Shown here piece by piece: positions 5,846 to 29,784 of a DNA stretch of 64,000 bases (positions within the stretch are counted from its first letter, which is position 1; every line of letters begins with the position of its first letter). The notes beneath the pieces are model-generated. The model was not told where the DNA came from. It did no database searches and saw only the letters and a program-made list of their open reading frames with translations. Origin of the DNA: Akkermansiaceae bacterium (lineage in GTDB: Bacteria > Verrucomicrobiota > Verrucomicrobiia > Verrucomicrobiales > Akkermansiaceae); contig CAISTY010000185.1 of assembly GCA_903888515.1 (NCBI GenBank), positions 1 through 64,000 on the forward strand. The letters are read 5' to 3'. A program made the position numbers and the translations under genes.

Positions 5846-6835
5846 ATGAAAGCACCCATTACGATTTCCATCACCGGTGCGGCTGGCAATATCGGCTATG
5901 CGCTCGTTTTCCGTCTCGCGTCCGGCTGTGTTTTCGGTCACGACCAACCGTTGAACCTCCGCCTGATAGAAATCGAGCCCGGCATGGCCGCGCTCGAGGG
6001 CGTCATGATGGAACTCTGTGACTGCGCTTTTCCGCTGCTCCATGAAGTGGTCGGCACTGCCGATCTCGACCTGGGTTTCACGGGGGCCAATTGGGTGGTG
6101 CTGATCGGTTCGGTGCCGCGCAAAGCCGGCATGGAACGCGGCGATCTGTTAGGTGTCAATGGCCGGATCTTCACTGGCCAGGGTCAGGCCATCGCCCGCA
6201 ACGCGGCCCCTGACGTGCGCGTGTTGGTGGTGGGAAACCCCTGCAACACCAATGCCCTCATTGCCATGCACAATGCTGCGGGAGTCCCTCGCGAGCGCAT
6301 CTTCGCCATGACACGCCTCGACGAAAACCGCGCGAAAAACCTGCTCGCCTTGAAGGCCGGCGTCCCCGTCGCGCAGGTTTCCAACCTGTGCATCTGGGGC
6401 AACCACTCCGCCACCCAATACCCGGATTTCACCCACGCGAAAATCCAGGGACGGCCGGTGACCGATCTGATCCCTGATGAGGAATGGCTCAAGGGTGAAT
6501 TCATCGTCACCGTCCAACAGCGCGGCGCAGCCATCCTCAAGGCGCGCGGCGCATCCTCCGCCGCTTCCGGTGCCAACGCCGTGATGGACACCTTGCAAAG
6601 CCTCATCACTCCCACCCCGGCTGGCGATTGGCACTCGCTCGCCGTTTGCTCGGATGGCTCCTACGGCATCGAGCAAGGGCTCATCGCCTCCATGCCCGTC
6701 CGCACCCTCGAAAACGGTCAGTGGGAAATCGTCCAGGGTCTGCATATCGATGCCTTCAGCCAGGCCAAAATCGATCTCACCATTCACGAACTGATGCAAG
6801 AACGCGATGCTGTGAAAGACCTCATCCCGGTCTGA
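5846..6835 (+). CDS. mdh: Malate dehydrogenase
   Basis: A 329-aa cytoplasmic enzyme of the TCA cycle that interconverts malate and oxaloacetate with a nicotinamide cofactor. The Rossmann glycine motif is TGAAGNIGYAL (near residue 10). The substrate-binding arginine segment is RLDENRAKN, the NPCNT motif follows the cofactor site, and the catalytic histidine lies in IWGNHSATQYPDF. Length and motifs fit the cytosolic-type (about 329 aa) MDH group. The frame is open far upstream through the previous gene; the start at MKAPITISITG is chosen because the Rossmann fold begins there. Confidence 0.96.
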   Translation: MKAPITISITGAAGNIGYALVFRLASGCVFGHDQPLNLRLIEIEPGMAALEGVMMELCDCAFPLLHEVVGTADLDLGFTGANWVVLIGSVPRKAGMERGDLLGVNGRIFTGQGQAIARNAAPDVRVLVVGNPCNTNALIAMHNAAGVPRERIFAMTRLDENRAKNLLALKAGVPVAQVSNLCIWGNHSATQYPDFTHAKIQGRPVTDLIPDEEWLKGEFIVTVQQRGAAILKARGASSAASGANAVMDTLQSLITPTPAGDWHSLAVCSDGSYGIEQGLIASMPVRTLENGQWEIVQGLHIDAFSQAKIDLTIHELMQERDAVKDLIPV

Positions 6836-18269: not shown

Positions 18270-20117
18270 TCAGGCCACCTGTTTATCCACGTCCTCGCGG
18301 AGGTTTTCGATGATGAAATCCTGGCGATCGGGGGTGTTTTTGCCCATGTAGAATGCTAACAACTCCTTGACGCCCTTGCCTTCCTCGTATTCCACGTGAT
18401 CGAGACGCATGTCCGGGCCGATCATGAAGCCGAACTCGTCGGGTGAGATTTCGCCGAGGCCCTTGAAGCGGGTGATTTCGGCGTTTTTTCCCAGTTTCTC
18501 GAGAGCCTTGCGGCGTTCGTCATCATCATAACAATAGATTGTTTCCTTTTTGTTGCGCACCCGGAACAACGGGGTTTGCAAGATATACAAATGCCCGTCG
18601 CGGATCATTTCCGGGAAGAACTGCAGGAAAAATGTCAGCAACAGCAAACGGATGTGCATGCCGTCCACGTCGGCGTCGGTGGCGATGACCACCTTGTTAT
18701 AGCGGAGGTATTCGATGCCGTCCTCGATGTTGAGTGCGGCCTGGAGCAGGGCGAACTCCTCGTTTTCATAGACGATTTTGCGCGGCAGGGCGAAGGTGTT
18801 GAGCGGTTTGCCACGGAGTGAAAAGACCGCCTGGGTTTCCACGTCGCGGCTCTTGGTGATTGAGCCGGAGGCGGAGTCGCCTTCGGTGATGAAGAGCGTG
18901 GATTCCTCGCGGCGCTTGTGCTTGCTGTCGAAGCGCACCCGGCAGTCGCGCAGCTTTTTGTTATGGACCTTCGCCTGCTTCGAGCGCTCGCGGGCGAGTT
19001 TCTGGACGCCCTTGAGGTCCTTGCGTTCGCGCTCGGCGGCCTGGATGCGTTTGCCTATCGTCTCCGCCACCTGCGGGTTCTTGTGCAGGTAGTTGTCGAG
19101 GTTTTGTTTGAGGAAATTCCCGATGAAGGCGCGCAGCGACTCGCCGTCCGGCGCGGTGGTGGCCGAGCTCAATTTGGTCTTCGTCTGGGACTCGAACACA
19201 GGTTCGACAATCCGCACGCAAACGGCCGCCTCAATGCCCGCACGGATGTCCGCCGGATCATGCTGCTTCTTGAAAAACCCGCGAATCACCTGCACCAGCG
19301 CCTCTCGGAACGCGGCGAGATGGGTGCCACCCTGCGACGTGTTCTGGCCATTGACAAAAGTATAGTATTCCTCGCTGCTCTCGGCACTGTGGGTGAAGGC
19401 GATTTCGATATCCTTGCCGACCAGATGGATCGGCGGATAGAGCGGCTCATTCTCCATTTCCTCGCGCAACAAATCGAGCAAGCCGTCCTTCGAACGGAAT
19501 TTCCTGCCGTTGAAAACCACCGTGAGGGTCGGATTCAGATAGGAATAATAGCGGCACATTTTCTCGACGAAAGCCTCTTTGAATTTCGCCTTTGGCGAGA
19601 AAATCGTGCGGTCGAGTTCGAAGGCGAGGCGGGTGCCGTTCAATTCGGCGTCGCGCCGCGGGTGTTTCATATCCACGGTGAGTTTCCCTTGGGAAAACTC
19701 GAGGGCCTTGGTCTCGCCATCGCGCCATGCCTGGATCTCGAAGAATGCGGAAAGCGCGTTGACCGCCTTGATGCCGACTCCGTTGAGCCCGACGGTTTTT
19801 TTGAATGCCTCGCTGTCAAACTTGGCGCCGGTGTTGATCTGCGCGGCGCAGTCGAAGAGTTTGCCTAACGGAATACCGCGCCCGAAATCCCGCACATCCA
19901 CCCGCCCCTCCTCGTCGATTTTCACCCGGACCTCCTTGCCGTATCCCATGATGTGCTCGTCAATCGAGTTGTCGATCGCCTCCTTGAGCAGAATGTAAAG
20001 GCCGTCGTCGGGCGATGACCCGTCGCCCAGCTTGCCAATATACATGCCCGGTCGCATGCGGATGTGCTCGCGCCAGTCCAGGGATTTGATGTCGTCTTCG
20101 GTGTAATCGGCGGCCAT
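18270..20117 (-). CDS. parE: Type II DNA topoisomerase subunit B (ParE/GyrB type)
   Basis: A 615-aa ATPase subunit. The GHKL ATPase domain shows [21 protein letters not shown] (Mg-binding Asn), DFGRGIPLG and [14 protein letters not shown]. The TOPRIM region shows [11 protein letters not shown] (usual form EGDSAGGS) and [16 protein letters not shown]. The short length, without the extra GyrB insertions, fits topoisomerase IV subunit B, which separates daughter chromosomes. No parC lies next to it in this window, so the ParE assignment rests on length and motif form. Confidence 0.88.
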
Positions 20118-26896: not shown

Positions 26897-27223
26897 TCTT
26901 GAAGCAAATATATCTTTTTTTATCGGAAGTCTATCTGGAGTCTAACATTATACGAACATATAATCCCACGAACATCTGCTAGAATGGTGATAGAACGTTC
27001 GTTTTCCGTGTCGTAAGTCACTGCCCGTATGAGAAAATCTATTTCCGAGAGCGTCCCAGTCCTCGGGCCCCCCCACCCCCATCCAAATCATGTGAAAGGT
27101 GCTTGTTGTGGAAAATCCTAAATTCCAAGCACTAAATTTTAAACGGAAGAGGAAGAGAGGAGAGGGCGGCGTGTTCTTTGTTTTGAATTTAGGATTTAGG
27201 CTTTCGGATTTCAACCAGCGCTG
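26897..27223. repeat. Intergenic region with an inverted repeat next to the epimerase relic
   Basis: The first 200 bp are AT-rich and hold no recognised gene. Between about 27113 and 27215, AAATCCTAAATTCCAAGCAC and a near-complementary arm (GAATTTAGGATTTAGG) form an imperfect inverted repeat. This repeat abuts the point where similarity to the epimerase stops and so marks its 3' truncation. Confidence 0.55.
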
Positions 27224-27936
27224 GCTGCCGTCGCCGTGGATGATGACCGGCTGGCCCGCCTCGATCCGGCGGCGGAAGTTTTCCAGGGCAAGGTCGGGGC
27301 GCTGGCCCGGTCCCCACACCGAGAAGAACCGCAGGGCGAGGAACCGAAGGCCGTGCTGGCGGACGGTAGGGTCGGACGGCCTCGGCCGACCCAGACTGCC
27401 CCCGAGGGTGAGATGTCATTGGCTGGCCATGCACCGGGCTATCGCGCCGCCCATCCGGGCGGACAAGTGGGCGCGCCGAGGCCGTCACGCCCTACCCCGC
27501 CTGAAAGCTTGGTCAGGGCGTAGGGGCTGCATGGGTTGGCCGGATGGTCCTCGCGAGCTGGCAGCGGCGTGTCCGGGCCATAGACACTGGACGACGAGGC
27601 GAGGATGAAGGTCGGCACCTCCATGCGGCGGCAGAAATCCAACAGGCGGATGGTGCCGATGACGTTGGTGAATTCATAACCGATAGGATCGTGGATCGAC
27701 GGCCGGACACCGGCCAGGGCGGCCAAGTGGTCCACGGCGTCGAAGCATTGGTTGGGCAGCAGGCCTTGGCGGATGTCGCAAACGTGGAACGCCACGCCCT
27801 CTGGCAGAGGATCCTTTGGCGGGATGTGATCGAGAGCCGTGACCCGGTGCCCCACCGCGTGCAGGTGACGGACGACGTGGGTGCCGATGAAACCCGAGGA
27901 ACCGGTGACGAGAACGGAGAGCGGTTTGAAATCCAT
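27224..27936 (-). pseudogene. NAD-dependent sugar epimerase/dehydratase, interrupted and truncated
   Basis: The N-terminal half reads MDFKPLSVLVTGSSGFIGTH (Rossmann glycine motif), HLAALAGVRPS and SPYALTKLSG (the YxxxK catalytic pair). It then stops at a 132-bp inserted element. On the far side, in another frame, LRFFSVWGPGQRPDL and VIIHGDGSQR continue the same family. The C-terminus is lost at an inverted repeat near 27215. This would have been a UDP-sugar epimerase-like enzyme; it is now dead as written. Confidence 0.85.
27365..27496. mobile_element. 132-bp MITE/REP-like element inside the epimerase gene
   Basis: The ends GGTAGGGTCGGACGGCCTCG and the reverse complement of CGAGGCCGTCACGCCCTACC match except for three bases, giving roughly 20-bp terminal inverted repeats. 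The interior contains a further GC-rich palindrome (GCCGCCCATCCGGGCGG). No coding capacity is present, so it must move, if at all, with an enzyme supplied elsewhere. No clear target duplication is visible, and about eight codons of the host gene seem to be missing at the junction. Confidence 0.75.
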
Positions 27937-28118: not shown

Positions 28119-29369
28119 ATGGTACGACAGCTATCAATCGAGGACTTACCCGCGCGAATCGATCCGCGACTTTATGCCTTCGGTAAATTTGCCCCCACAA
28201 ATCCGGAACATGGGTGGAAGCTGGCGACGGCGTCAATCAAGGCAAAACTTAACAAGGGGGACGTAACAGTCTCCGTTCCGGATCACGCTGCACTTTGCTT
28301 GAACATTGCCCATGCCGCATACGAGGCTGCTGCGATTATCCCGATTGAAGAAATTTTCAAAACTGCATCCCATCCCACAGGGGATGCTCTCTCCCTGATG
28401 TTCGACTATTTTGAGCAAGTATTTATAAACATCGTGTTCGCCTATACCGCCCTGGAGGCATTTTCAAACCAGACGATTCCAGACGACTTTGTCTTTTCGC
28501 GCCTTCGAGATGACAAGAAGTGCAACGAGACATTTAATAAGGATCAAATAGAACGCAACCTTTCTCTCGATATTAAATTATCAGAAGTGCTCCCTGAGAT
28601 TGCGGGAACCAAATTTCAGAAAGGATCTTCATTGTGGAACGACTATTCTAGTCTTAGAAAAATTCGTGACCGAATAATTCACGTTAAGTCCGCTGACTTA
28701 GGGTTGGGACTAGCGGAGCCCAAAGTAACAAACATTTGGGCCGACTTGCTGACTCATCGGAAAGTCGATTTTTCCATGATCGCCCATAAAGTGATCAAGC
28801 ATTTTCCAATAAAACGCGAGCCCTCGTCTTCTCCTGTTGCTGCGGGGCGGAACATGTGGATAAATCATTTTCCAATAATGGGAAAACCCAAACCTAGCGT
28901 TATGAACAAAATCAACGACCGCACATTTGTATCATCCCATAGCTTGCTTCTCCGGATGGAAGAAGTAGCCCTAGAGCTCACTTTAGGTGCATCACCATTT
29001 CGAGTCAGCTTAAGTCTCGAATCATCGGACGATGGAGTGGTCAAATGGGATTTAAGTAGTGAGGCACGATCGGTGGCACTCAAGATTTATAATACAAACA
29101 AAGGACACTCGGCCGTCTCTGAGAAAAATATACCAATCTTCCGATCTAATGCCGGCGATGTGCTTTATGGCCAATTCGCTGTTCAACATTTCACAGGTGA
29201 TCTTAGTTCGCTAATTGTGCAATTTACTCTTCTCAGTAATAAGCCAATAAATGGCGAACCGACGGGCGCTGGCCAACTGGCTACTATGCTCGCAGACAAG
29301 GAACACGCGAATGTTCAACCTGCAAGACAACCGCCTAAGGATGATTCTCCGTCAGGCCAGAATGGCTAG
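28119..29369 (+). CDS. HEPN-like protein of unknown function
   Basis: A 416-aa protein. Residues about 90-200 are helical, with YFEQVFINIVFAYTALEAF and then SSLRKIRDRIIHVKS. The latter contains R183-x4-H188, the catalytic RX4-6H motif of HEPN ribonucleases. The C-terminal half (about 250-400) is beta-rich and unrecognised. Its base composition is visibly more AT-rich than the neighbours, with codons such as ATA, AAA and TTA common, suggesting horizontal transfer. HEPN domains occur in toxin-antitoxin and phage-defence systems, but no partner such as MNT lies alongside. It is flanked by relics. Confidence 0.6.
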   Translation: MVRQLSIEDLPARIDPRLYAFGKFAPTNPEHGWKLATASIKAKLNKGDVTVSVPDHAALCLNIAHAAYEAAAIIPIEEIFKTASHPTGDALSLMFDYFEQVFINIVFAYTALEAFSNQTIPDDFVFSRLRDDKKCNETFNKDQIERNLSLDIKLSEVLPEIAGTKFQKGSSLWNDYSSLRKIRDRIIHVKSADLGLGLAEPKVTNIWADLLTHRKVDFSMIAHKVIKHFPIKREPSSSPVAAGRNMWINHFPIMGKPKPSVMNKINDRTFVSSHSLLLRMEEVALELTLGASPFRVSLSLESSDDGVVKWDLSSEARSVALKIYNTNKGHSAVSEKNIPIFRSNAGDVLYGQFAVQHFTGDLSSLIVQFTLLSNKPINGEPTGAGQLATMLADKEHANVQPARQPPKDDSPSGQNG

Positions 29370-29382
29370 CCGTTGGCAGAGG

Positions 29383-29540
29383 TCATGACCGAACGCCATC
29401 CATGTCCTCACTCACCAGCCCCACCAGCCTTCCGATACAATCCTCAGTCAATTCCTTCGGCCCCATACGGACCACCCGCCAACCTGCCAGCGCGGCTTCG
29501 AGGTATTTGCCGCCGCGTGCCCGCGTCGCCCTGCGGGCAG
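29383..29540 (-). pseudogene. Possible C-terminal relic of a nuclease-like protein
   Basis: The minus strand reads RARGGKYLEAALAGWRVVRM, then GPKELTEDCIGRLVGL and a stop. This resembles the last part of small restriction-endonuclease-like (VRR-NUC type) domains, which end in a GW-x-V-x-R strand and a helix. The frame is closed upstream by a stop codon and no catalytic residues remain. Short similarity judged by eye. Confidence 0.3.
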
Positions 29541-29784
29541 CCTATGGCTGGCGATCTCCGCTTGCCGAACCGGCCGCCACCATCTGAGGTGCTCGCGGAC
29601 ATAGGGAACATACGCCGGTATGTATGCTATCTATGCGTCTCCGGCTAGTGGCAGGACATTGACCGCTTATGTTGCTGTCCAGCAGGTTCGCAGCCCGCAG
29701 GGATTCCTGCAATCTAGCTCTTGACGCGGCATGCGCTAGCGGCAATGATGATCAATCCTAATGGGGTGCTAGAGCAGTCCCAAG

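Follow-up and report, generated by a model that had tools for sequence, protein, structure and literature searches.

The segment at 26.98 to 29.56 kb of the window (the whole 64,000-nucleotide stretch of DNA analyzed here, G000:C185:1-64000) is, with a probability that we put at roughly 0.85, a decayed temperate-phage fragment of an Akkermansiaceae-like bacterium in which an epimerase gene has been disabled by a REPIN (Table 1). An initial annotation made from the letters alone had described a 132-bp inverted-repeat element that splits a sugar epimerase between its YxxxK and GPGQRP parts, and comparison with other loci confirmed this. The insertion separates SPYALTKL from WGPGQRP in an Epimerase-family protein; a stop within the element ends the reading frame, which is taken up again in a different frame. 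The element itself is best read as a REPIN, that is, as two GTAG-tagged palindromes placed head to head.

Table 1. Features of the epimerase segment, in window coordinates
Feature	Position	Strand	Evidence or remark
Conserved tail behind the epimerase	26979..27107	-	Prophage copies and 7/7 IMG/VR records
Second inverted-repeat element	27111..27217	none	Arms 27113-27131 and 27179-27197
Epimerase 3' part (HGLRFL...GPGQRP...), cut at about codon 202	27218..27364	-	91% over 145 bp to C265; residues 155-202
132-bp element inside the epimerase, best read as a REPIN (GTAG REP head-to-head dimer)	27365..27496	none	Arms, hairpins, covariation, family, junction
Left REP, GGTAG plus hairpin	27365..27393	+	9 pairs, -11.7 kcal/mol, 2/200 shuffles as good
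Right REP, GGTAG plus hairpin	27468..27496	- (read on minus strand)	-10.5 kcal/mol, 2/200 shuffles as good
Epimerase 5' part, start to SPYALTKL	27497..27936	-	93.6-94% over 431-437 bp to C265
416-aa ORF in cargo slot	28119..29369	+	No family match
DUF559-like gene, C-terminal fragment	29404..29504	-	29404-29558 matches G026:C222 at 84%
Third short repeat, at break in DUF559-like gene	29505..29558	-	Same junction in G000:C203 and G026:C222

The element is laid out as an arm of 29 bp, a spacer of 74 bp and a second arm of 29 bp, with its two REPs in inverted order and the GTAG tags outside. The ends had been taken for near-perfect repeats of about 20 bp; inverted arms are indeed present, but they are 29 nt long and only 79% complementary (23 matches), and their six mismatches form two mirrored triplets. 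Owing to these triplets the arms look imperfect as terminal repeats, although each is a good palindrome that folds as its own hairpin. At both ends of the element a GTAG tag stands at one end of a short palindrome (GGTAG plus hairpin); each hairpin follows GGTA, the last G of GTAG being paired in the fold. The 23 arm matches were reached by 2 of 200,000 random 132-mers drawn from the window, the element itself being among the sequences that can be drawn. Folded as single-stranded DNA, the whole element reaches -42.5 kcal/mol (z -4.0, 0/200 shuffles as good), and both arms together then make one long hairpin.

The right REP contains, at 27480-27495, an exact copy of the 16-nt family core GTAGGGCGTGRCGGCC, which occurs 37 times in the host genome compared to 0 times for the reversed control. 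A search of the host genome with the whole element returned at least 66 matches at E 0.01, most of them covering just one end (40 of 69 first-look candidates were scored), and REP units of this family were found at many unrelated places. Single REPs and tandem REP arrays occur besides dimers; 18 of 37 REP rows have, at most 230 bp away, a hairpin-forming partner in head-to-head orientation, although two of the rows (L089 and L090) probably scored one and the same REP. The element thus belongs to a repeat family with members elsewhere in the genome, and the earlier view of a non-autonomous family element interrupting a gene holds. We also asked whether the hairpin stems are maintained across the family. 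In 19 distinct 27-nt REPs taken from fetched host loci, the nine stem pairs are paired in 83% of cases, whereas 1000 column shuffles, in which relatedness is not preserved, averaged 69% and never exceeded 75%; the short-loop rows, retained though out of register, lower the 83% figure. Pair 6-23 is CG in 9, AT in 4, TA in 2 and otherwise composed in 4 REPs; pair 7-22 is GC in 10, CG in 6 and different in 3; and pair 9-20 is GC in 13, CG in 2, AT in 1 and different in 3.

Across 59 genomes, counting the host's own, 11 match the element at E 1e-5, and all 11 belong to a single genus. The exact 16-mer occurs in 9 of the 59 (own included); its rarity in relatives, where 8 genomes have 18 hits between them (one hit is from another genus) and the reversed control has 5, counts against the REPIN reading. 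A second point against it is that only one other copy retains the whole 132 bp (C6:5462-5593, 97%); a 70% relative lies at C212:797-931. REPs are mostly extragenic, and the intragenic position of the window REP is a further point against. As a separate observation, REP dimers of ~162 bp also occur within a longer, palindrome-flanked repeat that reaches about 280 bp. Twelve copies were compared (C210, C245, C241, C219, C217, C119, C256, C28, C55, C273, C4 and C190), of which six align over about 265 to 285 bp (C245, C119, C210, C219, C241 and C217), four are without the left part only (C273 also having less of the right), and two have the right part only; five of the 12 have a contig end no more than about 310 bp away.

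The comparison with intact orthologues that the initial annotation had proposed was carried out, and uninterrupted homologues define the junction. Among 22 loci matching the insertion region, 16 are uninterrupted, 2 do not cover the site, and 4 are interrupted, namely the window, C6, G036:C171 and G036:C130, the last of which reaches its contig end inside the insert. Relative to uninterrupted alleles, about 13 bp are absent from the window between GGCGAG and TCTAC, and no target-site duplication was found there; the right side was read by eye, the multiple alignment being unreliable right of the insert, and the ancestral site of this allele is placed only approximately. The same insertion is, or formerly was, present in two other decayed host copies, C6 and C148; in C148, GGGGTAGG, with which the element begins, gives way to unrelated sequence. 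The refuting condition set by the initial annotation, no other copy and an orthologue with the same sequence in its gene, had a mixed outcome: the only other full copy (C6) lies in an epimerase copy at the same place, but 16 of the 22 loci are uninterrupted and REPs occur at many unrelated places. The two G036 loci (C171 and C130; L147:3450-3570 and L163) have the epimerase interrupted by an unrelated hairpin element, within a few bases of where the window's copy was entered.

The surroundings of the epimerase point to a phage. Across the compared loci, the gene order is an unnamed gene of ~220 aa, a DUF559-like gene, a variable slot, the epimerase and a conserved tail of ~160 bp (L010:1027-1186); this order is constant wherever at least two parts are present, and not every locus has all parts. 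The DUF559-like gene matches PHROG 503 (E 1e-29), with Pfam DUF559 below the cut-off, while the upstream gene had no Pfam or PHROG match, and its likeness to ParB is only an impression. All seven IMG/VR contigs found with the epimerase, none of them rated complete, have the ~220-aa gene, the DUF559-like gene and the tail in the same order, and none has the insert (the epimerases being single tblastn stretches). One of the IMG/VR records (G065, 56,967 bp) encodes an integrase, tape-measure protein, major head protein, head protease, portal, terminase and family-A DNA polymerase. From these contexts and phage genes it follows that the epimerase is a phage gene and that the window copy is a prophage relic. 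Among 50,697 named phage records, no epimerase match reached 60% identity, all 351 matching records falling below it. Epimerase-gene or tail DNA was matched in 23 of the 59 genomes (own included), 19 of the genus and 4 of the order, some by short stretches only and several with many copies.

The tail is conserved as DNA across the genus. A known RNA was considered and rejected, as seven loci gave no Rfam match at E 1 or better; two-sided covariation was found at 0 of 19 predicted pairs in 23 tails. An attC site, a replication origin or a small ORF would be other candidates for its role. A transposon end was likewise rejected, a clamp-loader-like phage gene lying beyond the tail in G065 and, by eye, similarly in G064. 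In C265, G026:C106 and G026:C222 the tail is followed by an IS91-type gene, and one-ended transposition of IS91 type was set aside, rather than disproved, as the main cause of the epimerase's spread once the phage records were found. The cargo slot between the DUF559-like gene and the epimerase (L135, L144, L012 and the 416-aa ORF of the window) holds AbiEi/AbiEii in G029:C803, a UzuA/GIY-YIG gene in G018:C11 and a TacA1 antitoxin gene in C6; the window's own ORF had no match in Pfam or PADLOC. With AbiE, UzuA/GIY-YIG, TacA and unrecognized genes among its contents, this slot is a place to seek new defense genes.

Repeats also mark the other breaks in the segment. The second inverted repeat reported at the gene end is real, with arms of 19 nt that are 89% complementary. 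It stands in place of the epimerase 3' third and the region before the tail: compared to C265, about 560 bp are missing from where the gene match stops (query position 606) to the conserved tail (query position 1166). Elements of this kind also stand behind the same CAGCGC or CAGGGC stretch, at the same gene position, in G036:C171 and G036:C233, and in G000:C71 one lies ahead of the same position in the tail. Such breakpoints, common to different species like that of the third repeat, suggest that broken copies were themselves passed on or that palindromic repeats favor such places. One epimerase copy (L142, reverse complement 1251-1660, G026:C31) is broken by a long tract of simple repeats of TTCGAC and CCTCTT types, and at L006:1180-1310 (C91) a chimeric junction, read by eye, runs from gyrase/topoisomerase-B-like first codons through a DUF559-like fragment into the epimerase. 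We take the start of this C91 gene to be gyrase/topoisomerase-B-like, resembling the window gene at 18270-20117.

The proposal that a precursor enzyme had been lost near a polysaccharide locus was not supported by these comparisons. The epimerase belongs to the prophage and not to the polysaccharide locus, and the window copy is a decayed one. A full-length copy of 312 codons lies on host contig C265, partial copies lie on C91, C6, C148 and C71, and the host genome has 26 Epimerase-family rows in all, 6 of them copies of the window gene and 20 other genes, some being weak matches. Given the full-length copy and the 20 other family matches, no loss of an enzyme is shown. The window does hold what we presume, from translations, to be glycosyltransferase and export-like genes at about 40 to 60 kb; nothing was seen that links the relic to them. 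A broken gene beside a polysaccharide locus illustrates how phage debris can be misread as loss of a host function.

A candidate for the enzyme that moves the REPs was found in a relative. In G006:C22, a protein of 170 aa (6115-6624) is flanked on each side by REPs of the window element's family, one of which overlaps the called ORF start, and the 3-kb locus contains 11 REP matches. This protein matches PDB 4er8 (TnpArep) at E 1.7e-4 over 104 residues and scores 73.9 bits against NCBIfam REP_Tyr_transpos, below the cut-off of 80; no Pfam family was reported for it. This RAYT-like gene is the probable mover of the REP family, the score short of the cut-off and the overlapping REP being points against. 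In the host genome, 14 Y1_Tnp loci, inspected up to 1.5 kb on each side and in some cases limited by contig ends, showed no RAYT with adjoining REPs; the word GGTAGGG occurs at one of them and by eye is unlike a REP. Since Pfam misses the G006 type, such a gene may have gone unnoticed in the host, and this negative result is weak evidence against the REPIN reading. A pattern search for the G006 gene in viral contigs gave no match.

Several of these observations bear on other explanations of the element. Inverted 29-nt arms, lack of coding capacity and membership in a repeat family would also suit a MITE of the classical kind, derived by deletion from a DDE-type insertion sequence whose transposase binds the 29-bp terminal inverted repeats, as would the related dimers of ~162 bp within a larger palindrome-flanked repeat. 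We consider this improbable, given that each arm pairs with itself as a hairpin whose stem shows compensatory changes, that REPs also stand singly and in tandem arrays, that the junction is without a target-site duplication, and that a RAYT-like gene lies among REPs in G006. A transposase with matching ends, for which the initial annotation had suggested a search, was not seen in the copies read, and the ends are GTAG hairpins. Less credible still is an assembly artefact in which a repeat joined unrelated contigs of a metagenome bin: the 5.3-Mb host bin is fragmented into 309 contigs, with several copies near contig ends, but the window copy lies deep within a 96-kb contig between matching gene parts in the right order, and the same insertion junctions recur in C6.

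A somewhat better alternative, though we think it unlikely, holds that the epimerase site is a preferred landing place which palindromic elements entered more than once. Between the window and C6, the insert differs at 4 of 132 positions (3%) and the gene flanks at 22 of 233 (9%; Fisher p 0.02), and the left flank of the window is closer to the uninterrupted C265 (95.7%) than to C6 (90.9%). Flanks that differ more than the insert, together with a left flank nearer C265, speak either for exchange between copies by recombination or for reuse of the site, and the unrelated hairpin element in G036 also lies close by. However, recombination among phage copies yields the same pattern, the left-flank tree has weak support within the host's copies (0.22 to 0.62) and cannot separate recombination from site reuse, and the flanks printed for 37 REP rows share, by eye, no target word beyond the final G.

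In the explanation that we favor, a phage relic interrupted by a REPIN, the segment would be an accessory corner of the phage, made up of the end of the DUF559-like gene, a cargo ORF, the epimerase gene and the conserved tail. Two GTAG-type REP palindromes with their 74-bp spacer would have disabled the epimerase as a REPIN, probably brought in as a single-stranded DNA copy made in trans by a RAYT (TnpA-REP), a route consistent with the absence of target duplication. The gene would have lost its 3' third at the second palindromic repeat, before or after the REPIN entered. Copies with the same insert may go back to one inserted ancestor followed by recombination, or the site may have been used more than once.

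RAYT-like domains were also encountered in frame inside host enzymes. Five host open frames combine such a domain with a conserved enzyme: AlaRS, CarB, IspG/GcpE, MetH (two domains) and an antiphage-type protein with DUF1156 (L013:7361-10873 in C91, L064 in C231, L068 in C24, L065 in C107 and L063 in C46). Matches to the host enzyme flank the domain on either side in AlaRS and CarB, and in IspG they are seen on the N side only, where the stretch ends. Scores against REP_Tyr_transpos exceed the NCBIfam cut-off of 80 in MetH (119.7, two stretches) and fall below it in AlaRS (75.0), IspG (73.8), CarB (63.5) and the DUF1156-type frame (55.4), while four of the five frames, all but AlaRS, pass the cut-off of Pfam Y1_Tnp. 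Judged by title or the start of the abstract, there was no paper on in-frame RAYTs among the matches listed. We offer only tentatively, and think it doubtful, that REP/RAYT elements of this genus live inside genes, with REPINs reusing phage-epimerase sites and RAYT-like domains sitting in frame in enzymes like host-tolerated selfish insertions at the protein level. These domains may be of more interest than the REPIN and merit a study of their own.

A REPIN is an already known type of element, and a palindromic repeat in a decaying copy of a phage gene is fairly ordinary. The case is of value as a well-marked disruption of a prophage gene by a REPIN, in a phylum that has received little study, for which the uninterrupted allele, several decayed copies and, from a relative, a candidate RAYT are all available. 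Compared to classical DDE MITEs, the element is similarly short and non-coding with terminal inverted repeats, whereas its arms are hairpins, it lacks a target duplication, and the copies read contained no matching DDE transposase. Compared to TnpA-REP/RAYT (PDB 4er8), the counterpart is encoded by a relative and not by the window's genome, but the G006:C22 protein matches it and sits among REPs of the window element's family. REPINs were defined as inverted REP doublets in a passage of PMC3116915, and passages of PMC3733652 report GTAG families in the Planctomycetes-Verrucomicrobia-Chlamydiae group as well as REPs inside genes, for GTAG repeats most in O. terrae. The window copy departs from REPINs and GTAG REP dimers in that it breaks a prophage gene and that its RAYT candidate comes from a relative, and it is likened to them by anatomy rather than through published sequence tables. 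It shares with them GTAG-tagged inverted palindrome pairs with a spacer of 20 to 100 bp, many copies per genome and, here in the relative G006, a RAYT-like gene among the REPs.
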